Shown piece by piece: positions 7,003 to 18,488 of a stretch of 25,857 nt of DNA. The DNA is from a virus. Positions within the stretch are counted from its first letter, which is position 1; each line of letters starts with the position of its first letter. The position numbers and the translations under genes were made by a program. The stretch lies in the IMG/VR virus record IMGVR_UViG_3300031565_000321, positions 1-25,857 of that record; one strand, given 5' to 3'. Below the pieces are notes generated by a model that saw only the letters and a program-made list of their open reading frames with translations, made no database searches and was not told the origin of the DNA.

Positions 7003-8844
7003 TCAGGAACCGCAGACGATGAGTGCGTCGGGTTCCGGAGCAGCACCGTTCGGGCAGAGGCCCTGGTGGGTGATCTTGATGGACTCGATGCCGATCTTGC
7101 AGACCTGGGTCCACTCCTCAGCGAAGATCTCCAGGTCGTTGGTCCGGTTGAGGGCCGAGTCCCGGATGAGTCCGACGTCGAGGCTGCCACCGTCCAGGCG
7201 GACGAAGGTGCCCGGCGAGAAGAGGTACGTCACCGCATCCTCGGGCCAATCGTTCAGCTCACCCGGAGCAGCGGGAGTACCCGCCTGGGTGGCCGAGAAC
7301 GCCTGGCCTTCGCCGGTCGCCGAGTCGTAGTACACGCACAGGCGCAGGTTGGCGTTGGCCGCCAGCGTGCGGAAGTACATCTCGGCGGTGATCCGGCCAG
7401 CCAGGACTTCCAGCCCAAGGCTGTGGTCGTTGGCGAGGTCGACGACCGCTGCGTCCATGACCCAGCTGGGAACAACCCAGTCGAGGACCGCGTTGACGTT
7501 CATGCCGTTGCGCTTGCGGTAGGCCGCAGCAGCTTTGACAGCGTCGGAGAACATCCGACGGGAGAGGCCGTAGCCGTCCAGCGGATCGGTCGTCGTCGGG
7601 GTCGACTCGCCGTCGATCACGTCGAGGTACAGGACTTCCTTGACCGAGGTGAACTCGACCATGAGGTCCATCGTCCGGCTCTCGACCCACTCGGGGAAGG
7701 TCCGGAAGTTGAGGTTGCCGAAGCGGATGCAGTGGCTGACAGCCACGACACAGCACTCGTCCGTGTCGGGACAATCGAACTGGATGCAGGGCTTCGGAGT
7801 CGCCTGACCGGAGCCGGAGCCGTATCCGGCCTCGTCCTCAGCGCAGGTGACCGTACCGACACCGGCGCGGGCTTCACGGAAGTCCGGCGGGACGATCCAC
7901 TTGATGCCACCTCGGGGCGCTCCCACGGAGGGGAGGCACTGGGCCACAGGATCGTGGGGCTGAGCGAGACGGAAGATCTCGTAGCTCGGGGGGAAGGGGG
8001 AGCAAGGACCGCCGGAGGCGACGAGGGCCGTCGCCTGCTGCTGGGTCTCACGGAGAGTCAAGAAGTTCGACTCTTCGCTTCCCTCCTGGAGGGAGGCGCT
8101 GACACCACTGGAGAACGACGCTGCGTCCCAGGGCATCTCGGCGGTCGCCACGGTGATCCGCTCATCGTGGACACCGGCGGGCACGACGCCCATCCGTCCA
8201 CGCTTGGTCGAGATCGCCTTGGCGATGGACTTGAGGTCCATCGACGTGCCGGGGGTGAAATCGGCTCCGGCGAGGTTCGTGGCAGCGAGCTGCACGTTGC
8301 CGAGAGGATTGGTGCTGGTCTCGGGGACCTCCACCTTCGTCTCGGGAGCCTTCGTCGCTTGGCGAGCCGTGAGGGCTGCGGCGAGTGCCTTGGCCTTCGG
8401 CTTCGGGGCGGCGGCAGCTTCCTCGACCACTTCGATCGCGGCGACTGCTTCAGCAGCAGCGGCGGCTGGGGTTTCGATCTCGATGGTCTCCTCGACGGCG
8501 ACCTCTTCGACCTCGACCTCTTCGGCGACCACTTCGGTCTCCTCAGCGGCGGCTTCTGCCTCGGGGGCTTCTTCGACGGCGGCTTCCTCGATGTCACCGG
8601 TGATCCGGAGGAGAGCTTCGTCGGCGCGAGCCTTCAGCTCACCTTCGACGGTCTCAATCTCGACGAGGCGGCCGTTGACCGCTTCGTAGCTGTCGGCGAG
8701 GGTCTCCAGCTCGGCGGCAACCTCGGGAGACATATCTCCTTCGGCCAACTCCGCGCTGCGGGTTTCGATCTGGGTTGCGAGTTCGACGAGGGTGGCCTTG
8801 TCGTTCTGCTCGGAAAGGGTTTCGAGTGCCTGGGCGATGTCCAC
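7003..8844 (-). CDS. Major capsid protein with N-terminal scaffold-like region
   Basis: 613 residues. The start is GTG at 8844 behind AGGAG at 7-nt spacing. Residues 1-145 are helical and very acidic/Ala-rich (AELETLADSYEAVNGRLVEIE, EEVEVEEVAVEETIEIETP), as in the delta or scaffold region that HK97-type capsid proteins lose on maturation. A basic Ala-rich hinge (PKPKAKALAAAL) and a linker to about residue 200 follow. The capsid fold would occupy about 205-613. It contains WVESRTMDLMVEFTSVKEVLYLD, GMNVNAVLDWVVPSWVMDAAVVDL and the closing WPEDAVTYLFSPGTFVRLDGGSLDVGLIRDS...NDLEIFAEEW, typical of actinophage capsid proteins. A Cys-rich insert (PCIQFDCPDTDECC, near 352-365) is unusual. No separate scaffold gene is seen, and the protease encoded at 15651-18488 is the likely processor. 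Confidence 0.9.
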   Translation of the reverse strand: MDIAQALETLSEQNDKATLVELATQIETRSAELAEGDMSPEVAAELETLADSYEAVNGRLVEIETVEGELKARADEALLRITGDIEEAAVEEAPEAEAAAEETEVVAEEVEVEEVAVEETIEIETPAAAAAEAVAAIEVVEEAAAAPKPKAKALAAALTARQATKAPETKVEVPETSTNPLGNVQLAATNLAGADFTPGTSMDLKSIAKAISTKRGRMGVVPAGVHDERITVATAEMPWDAASFSSGVSASLQEGSEESNFLTLRETQQQATALVASGGPCSPFPPSYEIFRLAQPHDPVAQCLPSVGAPRGGIKWIVPPDFREARAGVGTVTCAEDEAGYGSGSGQATPKPCIQFDCPDTDECCVVAVSHCIRFGNLNFRTFPEWVESRTMDLMVEFTSVKEVLYLDVIDGESTPTTTDPLDGYGLSRRMFSDAVKAAAAYRKRNGMNVNAVLDWVVPSWVMDAAVVDLANDHSLGLEVLAGRITAEMYFRTLAANANLRLCVYYDSATGEGQAFSATQAGTPAAPGELNDWPEDAVTYLFSPGTFVRLDGGSLDVGLIRDSALNRTNDLEIFAEEWTQVCKIGIESIKITHQGLCPNGAAPEPDALIVCGS

Positions 8845-8967: not shown

Positions 8968-9600
8968 TTAACAAAGGTGGAGTCGATGTAACGATCCGTG
9001 GTGAGGACCGGCGTGCCCTTTACGCCAGCGCCCCGGATTCGTGTGCATCTCCACGACTTTGAGGCCAGCATTCTCGGCGGCCTTCTCGAACTGTTGAGGG
9101 GTCCAGGTTCCCACCGAAGTCCATCCTGACGGCTCTGTCGCGACCTCGTAGAGCGGAATCTGGATCGCCATAATCCCGCTCGGCTTCATCACCGAAGCGA
9201 GGCCCTTCAAGATCTTGGACCGATCTTTCGAACGATGGTGGGTGAGGCAGAGGAACGAGCAGACGAGGTCGAACTGGAGGTGGTCGACGATGGATGGGTC
9301 AGTGCCGTCCCACTGAATAGTCGAAAGGTCACAGAGGGACTCGAACCGATCAAGCATCGACCGACTGGCGTCCGCGCCCCACACCTCTCCGAAGTACCAG
9401 TGGAGTTCTCGGGTGACGCGGCCGTCTCCGCAACCGAAGTCGAGGACCGACCATCTTGGGTGAGGGCCAACGAGATCGGCGAGCTGCTTGGCCCGACGTT
9501 CACCGGAGCCGTCGTAGTTGTCGGTCGGGGCGATAAACCTTCGTGCAGCGTCACTTTGCCCAGCTCTCTCCCATGCTTCGATCGTCTCGTTCATCCCCAT
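8968..9600 (-). CDS. Class I SAM-dependent methyltransferase
   Basis: 210 residues. The ATG at 9600 follows GGAGG (5-nt spacing) and overlaps the end of the glycosyltransferase gene by 10 bases. Motif I is VLDFGCGDGRVTREL near residue 50, motif II is VWGADASRSML, and DLVCSFLCLTHH is the post-II acidic strand. LKGLASVMKPSGIMAIQIPLY gives the motif III region. This is the Methyltransf_11/25-like fold used for small-molecule or sugar methylation; nothing indicates DNA methylation (no NPPY/DPPY). With sugar transferases around it, O-methylation of a glycan is the likely job. It is the last gene of the cassette before the capsid gene. Confidence 0.8.
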   Translation of the reverse strand: MGMNETIEAWERAGQSDAARRFIAPTDNYDGSGERRAKQLADLVGPHPRWSVLDFGCGDGRVTRELHWYFGEVWGADASRSMLDRFESLCDLSTIQWDGTDPSIVDHLQFDLVCSFLCLTHHRSKDRSKILKGLASVMKPSGIMAIQIPLYEVATEPSGWTSVGTWTPQQFEKAAENAGLKVVEMHTNPGRWRKGHAGPHHGSLHRLHLC

Positions 9601-10430
9601 CGTTTCCTCCAGAGTGGGAACGAGCCACCGTTCGTGAACTTGCGACGCGAGTAGGCGAGGTCTTGATGACCGAGCTTGGAGACCCACTTCTTGTTCCGGT
9701 CGTTGTGGGACGTCGTCCGCTTCTGCCAGCCGAGGGGCAGCCCTTCGACCCGAGCGCAGGTGGCCCCGAGGTACTGGATCTGTTGAACGAGGTCGCCGTC
9801 ACCGCAGTACCAACGGAACTTCTCGTCGATGAACGGTAGACCGGCGACGTCGTGCATCTCGGGGGCGATCATGAAGCAGAACCCGGAGAGTCCTTTCTTG
9901 CGCATCGTCCCCACCGTGGGCGTGATCCTCGGAGGGTCCGAGACCTTCACAGGATGCTTCTCAGCGTCCTTCCGGTAGTCAGGGAACACGGCCCACACGT
10001 CGTCAGAAGGTTTCCAGCCGTCGGTTACGCCGGGTCGCTTGAATGGCTTGAGCGAGTCGTACCGTTCCGGGAGGACCCCTCGACGGAGGGCGCGGGAGAG
10101 GTGGCCGATCACCCCTTCGGGTGGGGTGATGTCGTTGTTGAGGATCGTGAGATCCGACCCCGGATGGTCGAGAGCGACGCTCCATGCCTCGTTCCACATC
10201 GGGTGGATGATGCCGTCACCGGATCGGTCCCGCACCTCGACGTGGTCCCCGTACTTTCCGTCCCTCACCGAGGCCAGCCACTTGATCCCGCCAACGGTCC
10301 GGGTGTCGTTGTTGAAGATGACGATCTGGTCAGCCTCGCCGTCATCGACGAGACGATTCAGAACGTGTCGGGTGAGGGGGTGGTAGTCACGCATCGGAAT
10401 GGCGACGATCTGCTCTCGACCCTCAATCAC
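9591..10430 (-). CDS. Glycosyltransferase family 2-like (GT-A) protein
   Basis: 279 residues, start GTG at 10430; the first strand (IVAIPMRDYHPLTRHVLNRL) begins at about residue 8, so a later start would cut the fold. DQIVIFNNDT resembles the nucleotide-binding strand, and DLTILNNDITPP looks like the metal-binding acidic motif of GT-A enzymes. GLSGFCFMIAPEMHDVAGLPFIDEKFRWYCGDGDLVQQIQYLG matches the acceptor-side segment of family 2 transferases, with ED/GDxD-type acids. It closes with TSHNDRNKKW. It likely moves a sugar from a nucleotide-sugar donor to a protein or glycan. It diverges from the plus-strand methyltransferase at 10449 with only 18 bp between starts. Confidence 0.75.
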   Translation of the reverse strand: MIEGREQIVAIPMRDYHPLTRHVLNRLVDDGEADQIVIFNNDTRTVGGIKWLASVRDGKYGDHVEVRDRSGDGIIHPMWNEAWSVALDHPGSDLTILNNDITPPEGVIGHLSRALRRGVLPERYDSLKPFKRPGVTDGWKPSDDVWAVFPDYRKDAEKHPVKVSDPPRITPTVGTMRKKGLSGFCFMIAPEMHDVAGLPFIDEKFRWYCGDGDLVQQIQYLGATCARVEGLPLGWQKRTTSHNDRNKKWVSKLGHQDLAYSRRKFTNGGSFPLWRKRWG

Positions 10431-10448
10431 TGGCTACCCTGTTTCCGT

Positions 10449-11039
10449 ATGGGAACTCTCTCGGCAGCACACTTTAGGTCCATCCTCGGAGACAGCGATG
10501 GTCCGAGCGTCTACATCGAGACGGGACTCTGGAAGGGCAACCAACTTGCCATAGCTTCCAAAGTCTTCGACGTCTGCTACGGGATCGAGCTGGCGCCCCA
10601 TTGGGCGCAGGTGAATCGGGACCGGTTCAACGGCATGGACCGGGTCACGATCTTCGAGGGCGACTCGGCGAAAGTACTCCCGAAGGTCCTCGCTGACCTC
10701 CGACAGCCCGTCGTCATCAACCTCGACGCTCACTTCTGCAAGACCGACCCGCCGGTGGCGAAGTCGAAGTTCCCTCTCTGGTCCGAGCTGGCATACGTCA
10801 CGGAGCGCCCCTACGCCGACATCATCCTCGTCGATGACATCCACACGTTCGGACGGCGCCGGGAGGACCTCCGCTTCTCGAAGGGTGATGAGGAGTGGGA
10901 GGCCGTGAGGCCTCGCCGTCTCGTCAGGGAACTCGGAAGGGTCGAGAGGCATGAGGCGGTCGATGACAGCTACGTGCTCTGGCGGTCAGCGTTGCCCGAA
11001 GAATCCGCCGCGGGGGTTCGGGGTCCAGACGCCTCGTAG
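10449..11039 (+). CDS. Class I SAM methyltransferase-like protein (plus strand)
   Basis: 196 residues, ATG at 10449. There is no Shine-Dalgarno sequence, but TACCCT lies 8 nt upstream, so a leaderless transcript is possible. SVYIETGLWKGNQLAIASKVFDVCYGIELAPHW is the SAM-binding loop with its acidic end. RVTIFEGDSAKVLPKVLADL and VVINLDAHFC follow, then DIILVDDIHTFGRR. This arrangement is that of Methyltransf_24-like enzymes, which methylate sugars in O-antigen and related gene clusters. An in-frame ORF extends upstream opposite the glycosyltransferase, but I regard that as an artefact. Its 3' end overlaps the minus-strand methyltransferase gene by 54 bp, tail to tail. Confidence 0.7.
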   Translation: MGTLSAAHFRSILGDSDGPSVYIETGLWKGNQLAIASKVFDVCYGIELAPHWAQVNRDRFNGMDRVTIFEGDSAKVLPKVLADLRQPVVINLDAHFCKTDPPVAKSKFPLWSELAYVTERPYADIILVDDIHTFGRRREDLRFSKGDEEWEAVRPRRLVRELGRVERHEAVDDSYVLWRSALPEESAAGVRGPDAS

Positions 11040-11543
11040 CTTGAGTCGTTGGATCAGCTTGGCGTTCCGATGATGCGGCGTGCCTGGTCGGCTGAGGTCG
11101 GCATCGTGACAGAGGATGTAGGAGTTCTTCTGCGCCGAGGACGCCCAGAGTCTCATCTCTCCTCGGCGCAACTTCCCGAGTGAGTCGAAGATGACAAGAT
11201 CCGCCGACTCGTAGTCCTGAGCCGTCGGGTGACCTTCGCAGAACTGGATGGCGGGGAAGTCGCCGGTCGGAATCTGGGAGTACATCCGGGGGTCTGCCTC
11301 GAAGGCCAGGTAGGTGGAGTTCTCAGGGAGTGCCTCGTGGACACGGCGCGTGGTGAACCCCTGTCCGACGCCCGTCTCGATGATGACCTCCGGGTCGAGC
11401 TGGCCGACGATCTCGGCGGCGCCTTCGCAGAACTCCCGCTCGGGGGACCAGCCGTTCCAGGAATGGAACCCCAGTTGGCATCCCTTCGTGAAGACCGACT
11501 CATCGACCACATCTGGCTCGCCGTCGATCCATGCGTTCTTCAT
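10986..11543 (-). CDS. Class I SAM methyltransferase-like protein
   Basis: 185 residues. The ATG at 11543 overlaps the TGA of the sulfotransferase gene (ATGA). VIIETGVGQGFTTRRVHEAL is motif I, TYLAFEADPRMYSQI carries the ribose-binding acid, FCEGHPTAQDYESADLVIFDSLG the next strand and acid, and SYILCHDADLSRPGTPHHR the active-site region. It is of the Methyltransf_24 or CmcI-like group that acts on sugars or small molecules. Its relationship to the plus-strand gene it overlaps (10449) looks like paralogy: both use the IETGxxxG loop. The likely role is glycan O-methylation. Confidence 0.7.
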   Translation of the reverse strand: MKNAWIDGEPDVVDESVFTKGCQLGFHSWNGWSPEREFCEGAAEIVGQLDPEVIIETGVGQGFTTRRVHEALPENSTYLAFEADPRMYSQIPTGDFPAIQFCEGHPTAQDYESADLVIFDSLGKLRRGEMRLWASSAQKNSYILCHDADLSRPGTPHHRNAKLIQRLKLRGVWTPNPRGGFFGQR

Positions 11544-12067
11544 CGGAAGGTTACCTCCAGGCCGACGTGTCGGGCGGCCGCTGTCAGGATCTGTCGATTG
11601 TAGGCATCAGCGAGACCGACCCCGTTCTTGATGGGTATCGAGTTCCGGCTCTTGAGAGAGCGGGCGACGTTGACGGGGCGACGAAGGATGACGACGAGGT
11701 GAGCGTCGTCTCCGAGGTACGGCTCATAGACGGGGAAGGTGAGGGCAGTGCGAGGGTCCTTCCATCCCCACAGCCCGTGCCCTGCCGAATCTCGTATCTT
11801 CATCATTTGCCGAGCCATGTGGGTGAACTCGGGGGTGACCGCGGCGATGGCTTCCGGGGTTGGTGGGTCGCGCCAGGTGCCTCCGGCAGCCTTCAGGATG
11901 GCGTCGTTGAAGTGGAGCAGATCGAGGTCTTCGAAGTGGCCGTTCGGATTCGACTTCCTCTTCCCGAGGAGACGGTCACCCATCCATACCCCCATCTTGT
12001 GCAGTCCACCGGCGACAAGGCTCGAAGCGGATCGGTGCATTCCCAATACGACGAAGGCTTTCGGCAT
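11540..12067 (-). CDS. PAPS-dependent sulfotransferase-like protein
   Basis: 175 residues from the ATG at 12067. A GTG nine bases upstream is an alternative, but the P-loop follows the ATG directly. VVLGMHRSASSLVAGGLHKMGVWMGD is the 5'-phosphosulfate loop of sulfotransferases of the GMHRSGTS type. GLWGWKDPRT and LVVILRRPVNVARSLKSRN match the 3'-phosphate binding region. It would transfer sulfate from PAPS to a hydroxyl, probably on a sugar. It is shorter than most family members (about 250-300), so it may be a minimal form. Its ATG shares the tetranucleotide CATG with the plus-strand gene at 12066. No Shine-Dalgarno is seen, but TAGGGT sits 7 nt upstream. Confidence 0.7.
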   Translation of the reverse strand: MPKAFVVLGMHRSASSLVAGGLHKMGVWMGDRLLGKRKSNPNGHFEDLDLLHFNDAILKAAGGTWRDPPTPEAIAAVTPEFTHMARQMMKIRDSAGHGLWGWKDPRTALTFPVYEPYLGDDAHLVVILRRPVNVARSLKSRNSIPIKNGVGLADAYNRQILTAAARHVGLEVTFR

Positions 12068-12689
12068 GAGTGACACCCTAACGGAAAGAAACCTTCCTTA
12101 CCTTTCTTGGGACCACATCGTCCACTACTCTGGCAACATGCAGCACAACGAGTGGCGGGCCAGGGTCGGACGCATCCGAGATTTCGACATCGTCGGAGCG
12201 CACCAATTCAACGTCCTCACCGGACTAGGGGGCCTTCGTGAGCACCACATCCTGGTCGACGTCGGGTGCGGATGCTTGAGAGCTGGGAAGCTCCTGATCC
12301 CCTACCTCGATCTGGCGCACTACCTCGGCCTGGAGCCGAACGGGGAACTCATCACCGCCGGAGTCATGCACGAGGTAGGCCCTGGCCTCATCTCGAAGAA
12401 GGGTGTCCGGTTTACCCAGCGTGACGACTTCGACTTCTACGAAGAGTGGCCCCACGTTGAGCCGGACTTCGTCCTCGCAGACGGGGTCATCGACTCGACA
12501 AACATCGAAGCGTTCGTCGACGCCCTCGACAGGGGCCTCTCCCTCGACCGAGGCGAAGCCTGGATCACCATCGATCTCGAAGATCTCGAAGGCACCGTTC
12601 TGCGTGAGGTCGCCTCGGACTACAAGGTCACCGCCTTGAAGCCCCAGCACCCCGAGAAACGCTCGTGGTTCCGGTTGGTCCCGAAGTGA
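12066..12689 (+). CDS. Class I SAM methyltransferase (plus strand)
   Basis: 207 residues, ATG at 12066 with GAAGG about 8 nt upstream. The order FDIVGAHQFNVLTGLGGLREHHILVDVGCGCLRAGKLLIPYLDLAHYLGLEPNGE is characteristic of a group of methyltransferases found in polysaccharide and phage glycan clusters: an AHQFN lead-in, then motif I with the Cys-rich VGCGCLRAG loop, then LEPN. FVLADGVIDST supplies a following acidic strand. The stop overlaps the next gene's GTG (GTGA), so the two are co-translated. Likely substrate: a sugar or lipid-linked saccharide. Confidence 0.75.
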   Translation: MSDTLTERNLPYLSWDHIVHYSGNMQHNEWRARVGRIRDFDIVGAHQFNVLTGLGGLREHHILVDVGCGCLRAGKLLIPYLDLAHYLGLEPNGELITAGVMHEVGPGLISKKGVRFTQRDDFDFYEEWPHVEPDFVLADGVIDSTNIEAFVDALDRGLSLDRGEAWITIDLEDLEGTVLREVASDYKVTALKPQHPEKRSWFRLVPK

Positions 12690-13387
12690 CCGAGCAATAC
12701 CCGGTCTTCATCATCTGTCGAGATCTCGTGACTTGGCTCAAGCGAACCGTCGCATGGCTGGAGAAGTCTGGACAGACCGAGATCTACCTGATCGACAACG
12801 ACAGCCGTTACCCGCCGCTCCTCGATTACTACGCCAAAACGCCTCACACCGTCATCCGGCTCGGGGAGAACATCGGCAAACGAGGACCCTGGAAGCGCGA
12901 TGTCATCGCCAAGTACGCAAAGGGACGACGGTTCGTAGTCACCGACCCTGACATTGAACCGATCGCCGAGTGCCCTTTCGATCTCTTCGATCGCTGCTCT
13001 GAAGTTCTCGACGCTGACCCCAAGCTCGTCAAGGTCGGCCCGTCGCTCGCCATCGACGACCTACCCGACTACTACGAGCACAAGCAGCAGGTCATCGAAC
13101 GTCAGTCGCAATTCTGGGACGACAAGCTGAAGGTCGATGCTGGCTTCTTCGCCCCCATCGACTCGGTCATGGCCCTGTACCGCGAGGATCAATTCGACCA
13201 ATTGCGCACCAATCCAGCGGTCCGTCTCGGGCACCCCTATATCGCCCGACACATCCCCTGGTACACGAGATCGAAGAGGCCTTCGAAGGAGCTTGCGTTC
13301 TACCGAGACCGGGCGGGCGCCCGGTACGGCGGCTGGGCCAAGAAGGTGTTGCCCAAGAGATACAGGGTCAAGCGCCGGATAGTGTGA
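12686..13387 (+). CDS. Glycosyltransferase (GT-A, plus strand)
   Basis: 233 residues. The start is GTG at 12686 within GTGA, overlapping the methyltransferase stop. The fold reads YPVFIICRDLVTWLKRTVAWLEK, EIYLIDNDSRYPPLLDYY, then RFVVTDPDIEPIAECP. DPD is the DxD motif that holds the metal and nucleotide-sugar. The next segment (VDAGFFAPIDSVMALYRED) fits an acceptor region. A basic end (KKVLPKRYRVKRRIV) suggests membrane or polymer contact. Sequence context in the fold (HTVIRLGENIGKRGPW) is that of glycosyltransferase family 2-type enzymes. It converges with the sulfotransferase gene at 13368, overlapping by 20 bp. Confidence 0.75.
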   Translation: MTEQYPVFIICRDLVTWLKRTVAWLEKSGQTEIYLIDNDSRYPPLLDYYAKTPHTVIRLGENIGKRGPWKRDVIAKYAKGRRFVVTDPDIEPIAECPFDLFDRCSEVLDADPKLVKVGPSLAIDDLPDYYEHKQQVIERQSQFWDDKLKVDAGFFAPIDSVMALYREDQFDQLRTNPAVRLGHPYIARHIPWYTRSKRPSKELAFYRDRAGARYGGWAKKVLPKRYRVKRRIV

Positions 13388-14054
13388 CGGCTTCTTCGTA
13401 GAGCATCATGTCCCACCGATTCCGCTCCGCCACCTTCGACAGAATTCGGGTGGGGACATCGAGTCTTGTCGTCGACCTGTGGCGATGTGGAATCTGTGGG
13501 ACCTCGGACCATCCTCGACCTTCAGCCAACCTCTCGATGAAGCCGGGTAGATCTCCGGCGATACCAACGAAAGACATGACCCGTAGTCGATTGAAAGCCA
13601 CCTGAAAGTCCTCCGGAGTGACGGGCGCGTGCATCTCATCCCCAGCGACCTGGCGGTGCCCACACAAGAGCCTGGTCATCCCATTGTCGACGTCGGCCAA
13701 AGACGTCCCGAGAGCGAACTTCTCGAAGCCTGGGCGAATCAGCCGGTCAGTCCTCGGGCGAGGGTTGTCGGTCAGCCACTGGTAGAGGCTGACGATCCGG
13801 TCGACCGGATGGCGGAGTACCACGGCGTACTGGCTCTCCTGGGTGAAGGCTTGGTGGATTCCCCATCGCCCGTGACCCGACACGAGCTTCGCCCGGTCTC
13901 GAATCTCGATGGGGATGCCCTCGGCCATCTTCAGCATGTTCCTCGACGATGACCCCTTCAGGTAAAGGTGCTCGTCGGGCGTGTACTGGGAGCTGGCAGC
14001 GGCGCGCAGACTGTCCCCCGCGGTCTTCGGAAGGTGCATGAGGATGAGCGGCAT
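13368..14054 (-). CDS. Carbohydrate sulfotransferase
   Basis: 228 residues. The ATG at 14054 follows GGAGG at 5-nt spacing. LILMHLPKTAGDSLRAAASS is a PAPS-binding loop of the PKTAG type found in heparan 2-O-sulfotransferases and their bacterial relatives. AVVLRHPVDRIVSLYQWL is the 3'-phosphate motif (R-x-P-x-x-R-x-x-S-x-Y), and SGHGRWGIH lies between them. No signal peptide or TM segment is seen, so it acts in the cytosol, unlike the Golgi enzymes of eukaryotes. Sulfation of a sugar is the expected reaction. Sulfotransferases are unusual in phages. It opens the sugar-modification block, downstream of the beta-helix gene. Confidence 0.8.
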   Translation of the reverse strand: MPLILMHLPKTAGDSLRAAASSQYTPDEHLYLKGSSSRNMLKMAEGIPIEIRDRAKLVSGHGRWGIHQAFTQESQYAVVLRHPVDRIVSLYQWLTDNPRPRTDRLIRPGFEKFALGTSLADVDNGMTRLLCGHRQVAGDEMHAPVTPEDFQVAFNRLRVMSFVGIAGDLPGFIERLAEGRGWSEVPQIPHRHRSTTRLDVPTRILSKVAERNRWDMMLYEEAVTLSGA

Positions 14055-14117: not shown

Positions 14118-15227
14118 TCAGAGGGCGGTGCCATCGAGCATCTGCATGATGTTGTTGATACCGCCAGGCAGGTAGTCGTAGGTGAACCCGGAGGCGAGTA
14201 CGTCCAACATCCGATTGTTCGCTGCTCCGGGCTTGAAGTAGAAGCCTTTCGTCCCGGACCCGACACCGGTCAACCGTCCGCCTTCGATCCGGTTGTTCGA
14301 CCCGTAGATACGGGCACCCATCAGGGTGCAGTCAAGACCGATCAAGTTTTGGATCAGACAGTTGTTGGCTTTGATGAACACGGCCTTGCGGCAGTCGATA
14401 GCGGTCAGGTTGGTAGCGACCGCATGGTCGGTGGTGAACAGGAAACCTTGGTCACACCCGACCGCAACCAAGTTGGCGACGGTGGCGTTGTCTCCGCCAA
14501 TGTTGAATCCGGTAACGGTCGCTACGCCGTTGGCGTTGACGTGACAGTTCGAGATGATCGACTGGTGGCCTCCGTCACCCCACGGGTCGGCTTCAACACC
14601 TGCTTGGCCGTAACGGAGACGGATGCAATCGGGTCCGTCAGCGTTGACATCTGGAGTGACCTGGCAGCCGGTGACCAGCGTGCCGACGCCACGAATATCG
14701 AGTCCGGCTTTCTGAGAGTTGCCGTCTGTCCCGAACCGTTCAACGACAACATTGACGATCCGAATATGACGGTTCTCCGAGTTCGGGTTTTTGATGTCGA
14801 TGCCGTCTTCACCAGAGTCGGAGATGAGGGTGCCTTCGATCAACAGCGTGTCGATCGTGCCGCCTTGCGCTCCGATGCAATACGACTCGCTGTCCCGGAT
14901 GTGGCCGCCCAGGATCTGTATGCGGGTCACGTTGTCGAGCCGGAGGCAGTGTGCTGCTACCTCTTGGCCTGCGTTGTTGCCGTCGATCTGCGGGTTGACG
15001 AGTGTCACGTCGGAGACGTTTATGAGTTCCATCAGATGCGTTTCGACTGCTGCGCCTAACGTCCACAACGACCCCGACGCACATTCGAGGGTGGTGTTTG
15101 ACGGAACCTCGATCGTGGAGGTGACCGTTTCGTTGCCGCCGTCATGGATGACGCGTCCGCCGTGAGCCGGTAATGCGTCGAGTGCGGCCTGAGTGTTGCT
15201 GTAGCCCGATGTGTAGATGGTCGTCAC
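14118..15227 (-). CDS. Right-handed beta-helix (pectate-lyase-like) protein
   Basis: 369 residues. The start is GTG at 15227, with AAAGGG about 10 nt upstream. The N-terminus (IYTSGYSNTQAALDALPAHGGRVIHDGGNETVTSTIEVPSNTTL) is the cap of a pectate lyase 3-type solenoid. Short rungs of strand and turn then run through nearly the whole chain (NVTRIQILGGHIRD, TLLIEGTLISDSGEDGIDI, ATVANLVAVGCDQGFLF, NNRIEGGRLTGVG). It ends with a short non-helical tail (GGINNIMQMLDGTAL). Phage proteins like this are tailspikes, depolymerases or capsule-binding fibres. No obvious catalytic acids can be assigned by eye. Its place between the protease and capsid genes is unusual for a tailspike. Confidence 0.75.
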   Translation of the reverse strand: MTTIYTSGYSNTQAALDALPAHGGRVIHDGGNETVTSTIEVPSNTTLECASGSLWTLGAAVETHLMELINVSDVTLVNPQIDGNNAGQEVAAHCLRLDNVTRIQILGGHIRDSESYCIGAQGGTIDTLLIEGTLISDSGEDGIDIKNPNSENRHIRIVNVVVERFGTDGNSQKAGLDIRGVGTLVTGCQVTPDVNADGPDCIRLRYGQAGVEADPWGDGGHQSIISNCHVNANGVATVTGFNIGGDNATVANLVAVGCDQGFLFTTDHAVATNLTAIDCRKAVFIKANNCLIQNLIGLDCTLMGARIYGSNNRIEGGRLTGVGSGTKGFYFKPGAANNRMLDVLASGFTYDYLPGGINNIMQMLDGTAL

Positions 15228-15242
15228 GGCGTGTGATCCCTT

Positions 15243-15644
15243 TCAGGTCTCGTCGATTGGTACATAGCGGGGCTTCGGCAGCTTGATCCTCTTACCCGAA
15301 GTCTCCTCTGCCCAATCGGACATCGCCTCGAACATGGCTTGATCGTCGAGGGCGTGTGAATTGATGGTGTAGGCAACCTTGGAGTGCTGAGCATCGTTGT
15401 CCATCTGGAAGTCGTCCAGCCGTTGCACGAGCGACCGATCATCACCGTTCATCCCAATGCGATCCGAGATCTCACCGAGTTTCCCGTGGATACCGTTGAT
15501 CTTCATCTCGTTCTCCAGGACCTTCTCGATAGCCATCGAGACTCGATGAGCCGCCCGAAATAAGGGGGTCAGCATCAAGCGGAGGGCGGCGACAACGGCA
15601 CCCAGCAGAACTATGGCTCTACCCAGCTCTTCCCATTCGGGCAT
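15243..15644 (-). CDS. Small membrane-anchored coiled-coil protein (DUF2746/holin-like)
   Basis: 133 residues, ATG at 15644. A single TM segment near residues 8-29 (GRAIVLLGAVVAALRLMLTPLF) is followed by a helical, charged region (RVSMAIEKVLENEMKINGIHGKLGEISDRIG) and a more polar end with KRIKLPKPRYVPIDET. The architecture (one N-terminal TM, coiled-coil, short basic tail) is that of actinophage DUF2746 proteins, often second holin or membrane partners in lysis cassettes. No lysin is visible nearby, so a lysis role is tentative. Its start lies within a small hairpin (15645-15660) holding the likely ribosome site. Confidence 0.5.
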   Translation of the reverse strand: MPEWEELGRAIVLLGAVVAALRLMLTPLFRAAHRVSMAIEKVLENEMKINGIHGKLGEISDRIGMNGDDRSLVQRLDDFQMDNDAQHSKVAYTINSHALDDQAMFEAMSDWAEETSGKRIKLPKPRYVPIDET

Positions 15645-15660
15645 TGAGGGTCATCCCTCA
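15645..15660 (-). promoter_or_regulatory. Hairpin enclosing the ribosome site of the membrane protein gene
   Basis: TGAGGG-TCAT-CCCTCA is a perfect 6-bp stem with a 4-nt loop, directly before the ATG at 15644 and overlapping the protease stop codon (15651-15653). The only purine-rich ribosome site (GAGGG) is one arm of this stem. Translation may therefore depend on ribosomes opening the hairpin as they terminate the upstream gene. Confidence 0.4.
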
Positions 15661-18488
15661 GATCGGCGCGAGGTAGCCAACTCCGCGATCCGCTCCAGGG
15701 CGGCGACACCGTCGGCGGCCGTCTTCGGAGGTGCCGGAGGGGCTGGGATGCGAGACGCCGCCGCCTCGGCTCGTGACGCAGCCAGGAACTTCTCGACACC
15801 GTTGAGGCGGGTTTCGAGCGCCTCGTATTCGGCGAGAGGGACGGTGGCTTCGACCTCTGGCTCGGGGTCGACGTGCATCCCGACGGCGACCATCGCCATC
15901 GGCTCATCGGTCTCGAAGTTCCACTCGATACGAGCACGGCCGTCTGCGGGGACAGTGCAGCCTGCGTCGAGTCCGGCGGCGACGAGTGCCGGAGGAATCA
16001 GCCCGGAGGTGTTGACGACCACGAGGCCGACCATCTCCATGCCACCGTCAATTGGACGCCAGTCGGGGGAGATCTTCTGGCAGTCGAACGCCCGCAGCTG
16101 GGCATCGGTCGCCGACGGGCGGACCGACCCGGCGACATAGATCCCATGCTCGGTCTCATACGGGACGACGTCGGCAACGGCGTGACCGGCGTTCGACATC
16201 GCGTCCATCGCCGCTTCCCAATTCAGGCGAAGGTCAGCGTGACCGCACCCAACATAGATGACGCCGGTCTTGTACCGGCTACCTTCGGCCGTGAAGACGC
16301 CACCACCGCGCTTGAACCTTCCATAGTCCTCTCGACTGTGGGGTGCCCGGGTGCAGCGGTCGTTGAAACCGATGTGGCAGGTCGACCAGTCGGACACGTA
16401 TCCGTGGACTCGTCCATCCGGCTCGCGCCGAGCGTCATAGTAGGCGTCGTGTTCGGGGAGGAAGGCGAACCATGCCGAGGGGGGCTTGGTCGGCGCCTTC
16501 GAAGGCAACGAAACGACGTTGCCCGAAGCGACCAATGGAGCTGTCTCCTCGTCAAGAGTGATGTTGAGGGGGATGTTGGTCTTCCACACGCTGAGGGACT
16601 CCCGGTCGCCGAACAGGGCGGCATGGTCGGCTTCGAAGGCGAGGTAGTCGATGGCTCCGGCGACGAGCGCCGTTTCAAGGACCTCGATGAACGCTTCCTG
16701 GAAGGCCGGGAACGGAGTGATCGTGGCTCCCATGACCCGAGCTTTGGTCATCAGCATCCGGGGCTGACCGCCAGCCTCGTCGACCTCGATGTCGGCTTCG
16801 AGCATGTCGAGGTCGACGGAGACGCCCCGCATCGTGCCCTCTTTGACAAGGCGTCGGGCTTCTTGGCCGTCTTCGCCTGAGTCGAAGATGATCCCGGCGA
16901 CGATTTCGTCACCGACTCGTTCGATCGTCCAAATCGATCCAGCGACGACAGATCCGTCGTGGCCTCCGGCGGCCGAGTTCACCTTCTGGAGCATCAGGGG
17001 AAGGGGGAGGTCGCGGAATTCCAGGGCACCTCGGGCGATGCGACGGCGGTCACCCGACTCGATGCCTTCGACGACGAGTACGGCCCGAGCGTCGAAGTCA
17101 CCAGCAGCAGCGCGAGCGGCGTTCTCAGAAGCGAAGGGGCGACCATCGTCTTCCTCCTCGACGTCATCTTCTTCCTCAACCACGACGATGACATCGTCGT
17201 GAGCAAGCTCCGTCGGAGCCTCAGTGGGATGCTGGCATCCGCACTCTTCTGTGCTGGTCGGCTCTTCGAGAAGTGCTGTCGAATCTTCACTCATGGTGGC
17301 GATCTCCTTGGGTTTCCAGCCTGACAATACCTCAGACGTGGGATTTGATCGTTCATTCGATCGGATCGACAGTTCAGAACCGAACAGGATCCCAATCAGA
17401 TCGGCGCTGCTCGGGTTCCCTTCGAGTGCCGAAATGAGACCACGGAGGCCTCCATTGTTGATCGATTCGACGACTGAATCTGGCAGCAGTCTCTCCTCGA
17501 CAGCTTCGGCCGAGATCCCATCAGGGATGTCGTTGCGAACCACGATCTCAGACCGGAGGCGGCGGGCGGCGGCGATCTTCTGGCGCCGTAGAGCAATCAT
17601 CTCGCCGACAACATCAGCCACCTCGCTGTCGTTGTCGGCGTTCACGTCATCTCCTCGTATCAAGAAGCAGCGGCAGCTGATCCTCATCGATGCGGGGAGT
17701 TTCGGGTCTCCGGGATAGCGGGCGGTGAACCCACCAACGATGAAGACACCCGACGTAGGCACTGAAGTCCCGTGGAGACTCCCGTGGGCGGTCCGGACCT
17801 TCTGGTCGAGCATCGTGATCCACGACTTGCGCCGAGAGAACGGGTCAGAGGCTGCACCGGCGACGAGTGTCGTAGACGCGACCGTCAGCATCAGATCCTC
17901 GATGCCGTTGCGGAGATGGACGGTGAGCGCCTCGGCCAGCCGGTCGACCCGGTCGGTGGCGAGGACCTTCTCCAGGGCGTCGCCGATCGAGATGGTCGGA
18001 TCCTTGACCTGCGCCTTGAAGACGGTCGCTTCGAGTAGCTGCGAGTACCGCCCGACTCCTTCGACGAGTTCTGTGGCGACGTTGCTCACCTGCTGGGCGG
18101 TCACTGAATTCGGAGCCAGGTCGTTGTTCGCCGCCGAGACCTCGACCATGATTTGAGCTTGGCGTTCCGCCTCGGCCCCGATGAACTCGGCCACAGATTC
18201 GTCCCAAGCCAACGTCACATCGCCTACGAGAATCGTGTTCTTGGCAGCCCCCCGAGTCGCATCGAGCACCTTGTCGAAGGCCGGGGCAAACGACTCTTCG
18301 GCGTTCGCCTGTGCTGCGGCCTCACGGATCTCTTGTCCGCTCTCCGAGGCATTCAGCGCGGCGATCTGACGGGCCGCTTTCTCGCGGGTCTCGTGGCACC
18401 CCTCCAGCTCACCATCGGAGTCCTTGCGGACACTCCACGGCTTCGAAGAAGGACAGCCACCGTCGTTCTGATGGATCGACCAGGGCAT
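15651..18488 (-). CDS. MuF-like minor head protein fused to capsid maturation protease
   Basis: 945 residues, ATG at 18488 just after the portal stop. The start reads MPWSIHQNDGGCPSSKPW...GCHETREKAARQIAALNASE, a short domain common on phage head proteins. Residues about 215-280 form the MuF tail (WITMLDQKVRTAHGSLHG, YPGDPKLPASMRISCRCFLI). A charged linker (VVEEEDDVEEEDDG) leads to the HK97-type protease (about 450-605), with candidate His510 (GGHDGSVVAG), Ser557 (RGVSVDLD) and the closing VMGATITPFPAFQEAF. Residues 660-870 carry a domain typical of actinophage capsid proteases (GYVSDWSTCHIGFNDRC, GHAVADV, HGIYVAGSVRP, DWRPIDGG-MEMVGLVVVN). MuF-protease fusions occur in other actinophages. An internal ATG at 17294 could give the protease alone. 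Confidence 0.85.
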   Translation of the reverse strand: MPWSIHQNDGGCPSSKPWSVRKDSDGELEGCHETREKAARQIAALNASESGQEIREAAAQANAEESFAPAFDKVLDATRGAAKNTILVGDVTLAWDESVAEFIGAEAERQAQIMVEVSAANNDLAPNSVTAQQVSNVATELVEGVGRYSQLLEATVFKAQVKDPTISIGDALEKVLATDRVDRLAEALTVHLRNGIEDLMLTVASTTLVAGAASDPFSRRKSWITMLDQKVRTAHGSLHGTSVPTSGVFIVGGFTARYPGDPKLPASMRISCRCFLIRGDDVNADNDSEVADVVGEMIALRRQKIAAARRLRSEIVVRNDIPDGISAEAVEERLLPDSVVESINNGGLRGLISALEGNPSSADLIGILFGSELSIRSNERSNPTSEVLSGWKPKEIATMSEDSTALLEEPTSTEECGCQHPTEAPTELAHDDVIVVVEEEDDVEEEDDGRPFASENAARAAAGDFDARAVLVVEGIESGDRRRIARGALEFRDLPLPLMLQKVNSAAGGHDGSVVAGSIWTIERVGDEIVAGIIFDSGEDGQEARRLVKEGTMRGVSVDLDMLEADIEVDEAGGQPRMLMTKARVMGATITPFPAFQEAFIEVLETALVAGAIDYLAFEADHAALFGDRESLSVWKTNIPLNITLDEETAPLVASGNVVSLPSKAPTKPPSAWFAFLPEHDAYYDARREPDGRVHGYVSDWSTCHIGFNDRCTRAPHSREDYGRFKRGGGVFTAEGSRYKTGVIYVGCGHADLRLNWEAAMDAMSNAGHAVADVVPYETEHGIYVAGSVRPSATDAQLRAFDCQKISPDWRPIDGGMEMVGLVVVNTSGLIPPALVAAGLDAGCTVPADGRARIEWNFETDEPMAMVAVGMHVDPEPEVEATVPLAEYEALETRLNGVEKFLAASRAEAAASRIPAPPAPPKTAADGVAALERIAELATSRRSEG
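17292..17309 (-). promoter_or_regulatory. Internal ribosome site and in-frame start for protease half
   Basis: Within the MuF-protease gene, AAGGAG stands 9 nt before an in-frame ATG (codon 399, first bases 17294-17292). The product would be 547 residues starting MSEDSTALLEEP: an acidic leader, the protease and the C-terminal domain, without MuF. The site lies exactly at the inter-domain linker, where an independent start would be useful. Confidence 0.5.

Follow-up and report, generated by a model that had tools for sequence, protein, structure and literature searches.

The window analysed here is the whole of IMG/VR virus record IMGVR_UViG_3300031565_000321, a 25,857-base fragment of a virus genome, and all statements about the window apply to this fragment. 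It holds a late structural module of a tailed phage, which is encoded on the minus strand. Eight consecutive open reading frames (ORFs) were found at positions 8968-14054, between the gene for a MuF/protease fusion and the major capsid gene, and they encode two predicted sulfotransferases (S1 and S2), two glycosyltransferases (G1 and G2) and four class I methyltransferases (M1 to M4) that would use S-adenosylmethionine (SAM). Five of these genes lie on the minus strand (M1, G1, M3, S1 and S2), while M2, M4 and G2 lie on the plus strand, opposite to the structural genes of the phage. Adjacent genes of the cassette overlap by up to 54 bp. The start of M3 overlaps the stop of S1 (ATGA), and at 12065-12068 S1 (minus) and M4 (plus) share part of their start codons, so that the two genes diverge without any intergenic space.

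In coding scores calculated against the structural genes of the phage, each of the eight ORFs was coding in its own frame and scored above the five other frames. Codon statistics and homology ruled out spurious ORFs of GC-rich DNA. No clear membrane segment was seen in the hydropathy profiles of the eight proteins. Direct Pfam searches placed M1 alone above the cut-off (Methyltransf_25, expectation value (E) 2.6e-15), and it is clearly a methyltransferase. S2 (Sulfotransfer_2, E 0.0018), M3 (Methyltransf_24, E 0.002) and M4 (Methyltransf_12, E 0.012) fell below it, and no match was returned for G1, G2, S1 or M2. The identities of the weakly matched genes were rebuilt from homologues, which support the predicted class of G2 well, those of G1 and M4 moderately and those of M2 and M3 weakly. 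An earlier sequence-only reading of this DNA had assigned two sulfotransferases, two glycosyltransferases and four methyltransferases to the same positions, and these assignments were borne out by profiles, homologues and folds, although that reading made no mention of the mixed strands. It had also named families in which the proteins should be found. Sulfotransfer_2 for S2 and Methyltransf_24 for M3 appeared below the cut-off, whereas G1, G2 and S1 had no direct match and it was their homologues that matched. The loops PKTAGDSL and GMHRSASS, quoted in that reading, correspond to the 5'-phosphosulfate-binding loops, one in each sulfotransferase.

S2 (13368-14054, minus) is a Sulfotransfer_2-type protein. 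In an alignment of 13 sequences, H7, P9-G13, R81 and S89 were invariant, comprising the 5' loop HLPKTAG and the pair R81-x7-S89. Its structural model had a predicted local distance difference test (pLDDT) score of 87, and the first seven Foldseek matches were heparan-sulfate 2-O/6-O-sulfotransferases, with E down to 6.5e-8, several of which contain a bound oligosaccharide and 3'-phosphoadenosine-5'-phosphate. A profile search against the Protein Data Bank (PDB) agreed with the fold matches. A GH motif (H61) is common to S2 and four of its relatives, and it may correspond to the catalytic-histidine region of the heparan-sulfate 2-O-enzyme. Hence, the prediction that S2 is a sulfotransferase using 3'-phosphoadenosine-5'-phosphosulfate (PAPS), with a fold like that of glycan O-sulfotransferases, is well supported. 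The pattern PKTAGxS was found at at least 119 viral loci and, among those listed, 116 of 119 carry members of the S2 family; genes of the S2 type therefore appear to be common in phages.

S1 (11540-12067, minus) is a short, Sulfotransfer_3-like protein. Scans of viral contigs with single proteins (S1, S2 and the capsid protein) gave no confirmed relatives, and degenerate DNA patterns and alignments were used instead. The DNA pattern for GMHRSxxS, 23 residues and NPxGxxE matched 49 viral contigs, all 49 of which encode an S1 homologue (28-47% identity). Within the family alignment of 31 sequences, 23 members matched Sulfotransfer_3, seven matched Sulfotransfer_1 and none matched a kinase; residues G9-S13 and S137 were invariant and R129 near-invariant. 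In known sulfotransferases, the R-x7-S pair binds the 3'-phosphate of PAPS. The family profile matched tyrosylprotein sulfotransferases, CurM, SULT1A1 and StaL in the PDB. The AlphaFold model of S1 (pLDDT 95) had sulfotransferases as its first five Foldseek matches, and with VIA-align the first eight were sulfotransferases, with Z from 11.0 to 10.0. These results make the prediction of S1 as a PAPS-type sulfotransferase well supported.

Since sulfotransferases and P-loop kinases share the P-loop fold, S1 and/or S2 might instead be kinases. The S1 model lies close to adenylate and related kinases (best Z 9.9), and the direct Pfam result was nil for S1 and below the cut-off for S2. However, the R-x7-S pair and the family profiles led to the rejection of a kinase for S1, the best VIA-align matches of S1 were all sulfotransferases, and Foldseek matches 1 to 45 of S2 were sulfotransferases or the related retinol dehydratase. 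Kinases are thus extremely improbable here. In fold and PAPS-site residues, S1 and S2 resemble heparan-sulfate 2-O/6-O- and tyrosylprotein sulfotransferases, but they are smaller and only 12-20% identical to them.

G2 (12665-13387, plus) resembles GT-A/GT2 glycosyltransferases and carries a TDPD motif. Patterns built on DNDSxYPPL gave zero matches and were replaced by TDPD/ARHxPWY, which matched 74 bacterial and 12 viral contigs, all 86 loci being true G2 homologues; the best of these include actinobacterial genomes. Five of the 26 members of the G2 alignment weakly matched Glycos_transf_2 (best E 5e-4), and the G2 profile had no match among PDB sequences. G1 (9591-10430, minus), also GT-A/GT2-like, had a weak match to a PHROG glycosyltransferase (E 0.0014). 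Its one good relative, on viral contig L140 (phmmer E 6e-11), clearly matched Glycos_transf_2 (E 5e-8); a G2 homologue (46% identity) and a methyltransferase are encoded close to it. Besides M1 (8968-9600, minus), M4 (12066-12689, plus) is class I SAM methyltransferase-like, and its homologue (37% identity) adjoins S1 homologues in L008 and L048. M2 (10449-11039, plus) is a probable methyltransferase and the least certain of the eight; it showed weak tblastn similarity to cyanophage genes, one of which (S-SCSM1, E 3e-7) is annotated as a methyltransferase. M3 (10986-11543, minus) is methyltransferase-like, the weak Methyltransf_24 match being the one piece of evidence for it. No match to M2, M3 or M4 was found among PDB sequences.

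In a set of 50,697 records of isolated phages, no match to S2, G1, G2, M3 or M4 was obtained at the limits used, and the sole match to S1 was OQ572406.1 (L006, "Pseudomonas phage Y4"). This record is marked UNVERIFIED and the ORFs next to the S1-type gene read as a bacterial polysaccharide locus, and it was rejected as phage evidence for S1. Its last half as a whole reads as a polysaccharide-synthesis locus of bacterial type and is probably host DNA.

Short S1 proteins recur beside head genes of other phages. The S1 of the window forms a clade with those of L030, L023 and L055 (support 0.87). In L030, an SU10-type capsid gene is followed by a small ORF, S1, a methyltransferase, a radical SAM gene, two GT2-like genes and an SU10 adaptor, and in L023 an SU10-type capsid gene is followed by a small ORF, S1, a glycosyltransferase-like gene and a structural gene. 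In L055, a head-tail adaptor and a head-completion gene precede other small genes, after which come S1, a radical SAM gene, GT17, a SPASM protein, another sulfotransferase (S2-type) and two glycosyltransferases. In a larger S1 group (L008, L009, L011, L022, L025, L028, L035, L036, L043, L044, L046, L047, L053 and others), to which loci beyond L008 and L011 were assigned by sequence resemblance, S1 lies with MptE-like, cupin, glycosyltransferase and other genes beside neck and tail genes. S1, a Sulfotransfer_1 gene and a GT2-like gene stand side by side in L018 and L016, and in L226, a contig that also has a tail-tube gene, two sulfotransferases come after FkbM and TylF methyltransferases. We consider this recurrence beside the head genes of unrelated phages to be of more interest than the single locus. 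More tentatively, uncultured tailed phages of several unrelated lineages may carry cassettes for sulfation, methylation and glycosylation among their head or neck genes and cover their particles with glycans that are sulfated and O-methylated, which would be a phage surface chemistry so far undescribed.

Three further features of these loci were observed. Radical-SAM genes lie within the head-side sulfotransferase and glycosyltransferase cassettes (L055:1496-4548 and L030:4713-5993). In related uncultured phages (L008, L011, L018, L025, L036 and similar loci), S1 recurs in the neck module together with an MptE-like protein, a cupin and glycosyltransferases. In L013, L020, L021/L037 and L045, the S1-type sequence is fused, as the C-terminal half, to an N-terminal half that by eye resembles GT2, and this fusion is a putative single-chain enzyme for both adding and sulfating a sugar.

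The position of the cassette was compared with that of related phages. Among 64 capsid relatives in which a protease could be seen, the gap between the protease and capsid genes was at most 213 bp in 51, 0.67-0.9 kb in seven (four of these were checked, each with one small ORF) and more than 1.4 kb in six; in the window it is 6.8 kb. A gap that is normally nearly empty bears out the description of the cassette as inserted. The sequence-only reading had set the eight genes between the protease and the capsid gene. They do lie in that interval, but a 133-amino-acid protein and a beta-helix-like ORF intervene, so that the cassette is not flush with the protease. The three closest relatives (capsid identity 41-47%) all hold 3.2-6.7 kb of differing cargo in the gap, which makes this interval a hotspot for cargo in the clade of the window phage, as judged from the sequences. 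The cargo spans L261:1782-8485, L262:5732-8950, L263:4409-8038 and L276:4203-8944, with accessory genes that differ from phage to phage (WhiB, nucleotide kinase, ATPase, glucosyltransferase). Since many of the ORFs listed in the GC-rich inserts of the relatives are spurious, only those with a profile match are named here. A phrog_854 glucosyltransferase lies in the gap of L276/L333 (E 5e-26) and L264 (E 7e-5), and in L262 and L263 a GT4 gene comes immediately after that for the capsid protein. The isolated relatives Mimi, DSL-LC01, Cece and Forza lack such a cassette at the protease-capsid position; in Forza, two glycosyltransferases lie further downstream. The argument from position is weakened in two respects: in the closest relatives the gap takes up cargo in general, and the strands of the cassette are mixed.

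Taken together, we propose, with a probability of roughly one half, that the eight genes are a virion-decorating cassette for a methylated, sulfated glycan, and that this tailed phage, probably one that infects actinobacteria, carries it in a hotspot for insertions that separates the prohead protease gene from the capsid gene. In the cytoplasm, G1 and G2 would transfer sugars from host nucleoside-diphosphate sugars onto a virion protein or extend such a glycan, M1 to M4 would O-methylate the glycan with SAM as a methyl cap, and S2 and S1 would sulfate it with PAPS supplied by the host. The resulting glycan would be anionic and capped with methyl groups, and it may alter the adsorption, stability or recognition of the particle. 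A glycan is favoured as the sulfation target because the nearest folds to S2 act on glycans. A virion target is favoured because the kin of S1 sit with glycosyltransferases, methyltransferases or further sulfotransferases beside head and neck genes. Glycosyltransferase genes are also linked to virion genes, lying between the protease and capsid genes here and recurring near capsid genes in relatives. Most likely, the acceptor would be either the capsid protein or the beta-helix protein encoded next to the cassette. The genes, the folds and PAPS-site residues of S1 and S2, and the position and recurrence were established from the data; the acceptor, the order of the steps and the benefit are inferred. 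The sequence-only reading had proposed a sugar that is added, methylated and sulfated on virion proteins or on a host polymer; its enzyme classes were right and its scheme is the best available, given the glycan-type fold of S2 and the context of the S1 kin; the interpretation as a whole is supported in part.

Several results weigh against the proposed cassette. The identification of G1, M2 and M3 is weak, the cargo in the gap of the closest relatives includes WhiB, nucleotide kinase and ATPase genes, as expected of a general hotspot, and no relative with the same cassette was found when 80 capsid relatives were searched for its genes. The strands are mixed, and the cassette therefore need not be one operon. 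No gene for sugar-nucleotide or PAPS synthesis was recognised within the window. The unrelated cargo, the mixed strands and the failure to find the eight genes together elsewhere would also fit a hotspot that gathered unrelated transferases with separate targets (proteins, nucleotides or small molecules) and no single pathway. Such a collection is quite unlikely, as all eight genes fall within three functionally linked classes and similar mixtures recur in unrelated phages.

Virion decoration has its main rival in a cassette taken from a host polysaccharide cluster that alters a polysaccharide or glycolipid on the host surface in the course of infection or lysogeny, for receptor masking or superinfection exclusion. 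We consider this unlikely. Many G2 homologues are bacterial and often actinobacterial, S1-type genes occur in bacterial polysaccharide loci such as that of the Y4 record, and the mixed strands suggest piecemeal acquisition. However, the cassette is set within the late structural module, glycosyltransferases recur on the capsid side in relatives, and no integrase, flippase or membrane anchor was recognised in the window. None of the 74 bacterial G2 loci (up to 8 kb each) carried an S1- or S2-type gene. The enzymes might also hypermodify the phage DNA with glycosylated, methylated or sulfated bases as a protection against restriction, and work cited in the available text of PMC10829341 has proposed phage systems in which glycosyltransferases and sulfotransferases together act on nucleotides. 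This is very unlikely for the window phage, since S2 resembles glycan O-sulfotransferases and the genes of the relatives adjoin capsid and neck genes; no base-oxidising or nucleotide-activating gene was recognised in this genome fragment, for which no dedicated search was made.

Virion decoration by glycans has precedents. In the mycobacteriophages Che8 and Rita, glycans are reported on capsid and tail-tube subunits (Freeman et al. 2023, as cited in PMC11256854 and PMC12619734), and the statement of the sequence-only reading that phage-encoded glycosylation of capsid and tail proteins is known in mycobacteriophages agrees with the available text of these papers. The window phage likewise appears to be an actinophage with glycosyltransferases of its own. 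In contrast to those reports, which mention glycans alone in the text available, the window adds two predicted sulfotransferases and four predicted methyltransferases. Metavirome studies of uncultured phages count sulfotransferases among the auxiliary metabolic genes (PMC10829341, PMC8290583, PMC11309003). These are likewise phage-encoded and in one of the studies co-occur with glycosyltransferases, but in the available text they appear as single genes, with no head-module cassette or virion target. The N-glycan of Halobacterium salinarum is sulfated by two sulfotransferases (PMC11980604, available text), which, as proposed for S1 and S2, act on the sugars of a protein-linked glycan; unlike the window, that system is cellular and concerns an archaeal N-glycan. 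In the titles and abstracts of the open-access literature, neither phage-encoded virion sulfation nor a cassette for sulfation, methylation and glycosylation was found, and within that scope the combination of sulfation and O-methylation is, as the sequence-only reading held, undescribed in phages. Particles with sulfated, methylated sugars, if real, would extend to phages a type of surface chemistry that has until now been known in cells, and this would affect how the particle adsorbs, persists and is recognised. They would also suggest a testable role for many sulfotransferase, methyltransferase and glycosyltransferase genes now listed as host-metabolism genes in metaviromes. At least some of these genes are neighbours of capsid genes, and the particle itself may be what they act on.

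The host of the tailed phage is probably an actinobacterium, because its capsid protein shares about 31-33% identity with the capsid proteins of Arthrobacter, Microbacterium and Gordonia phages and the close relative L262 has a WhiB gene upstream of its capsid gene. The major capsid protein (7003-8844, minus; phrog_777, E 2e-57) forms the downstream border of the insertion and is a candidate acceptor. The upstream border is the MuF/protease fusion (15651-18488, minus), with PHROG and Pfam matches that include Phage_Mu_F and Peptidase_S78 (weak in Pfam). The structural module further comprises the portal (20609-18492, minus), the terminase large subunit (22173-20671, minus), a phrog_779 protein and the major tail protein. 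Of the two ORFs between the cassette and the protease, the 133-amino-acid protein (15243-15644, minus) has one hydrophobic segment by hydropathy and no Pfam match. The beta-helix-like ORF (14118-15227, minus), a possible acceptor or fibre as read from its sequence, had no match in Pfam, PHROGs, NCBIfam or the PDB. Its coding score was positive, and it is rich in Asn, adjoins the cassette and lies on the structural strand.

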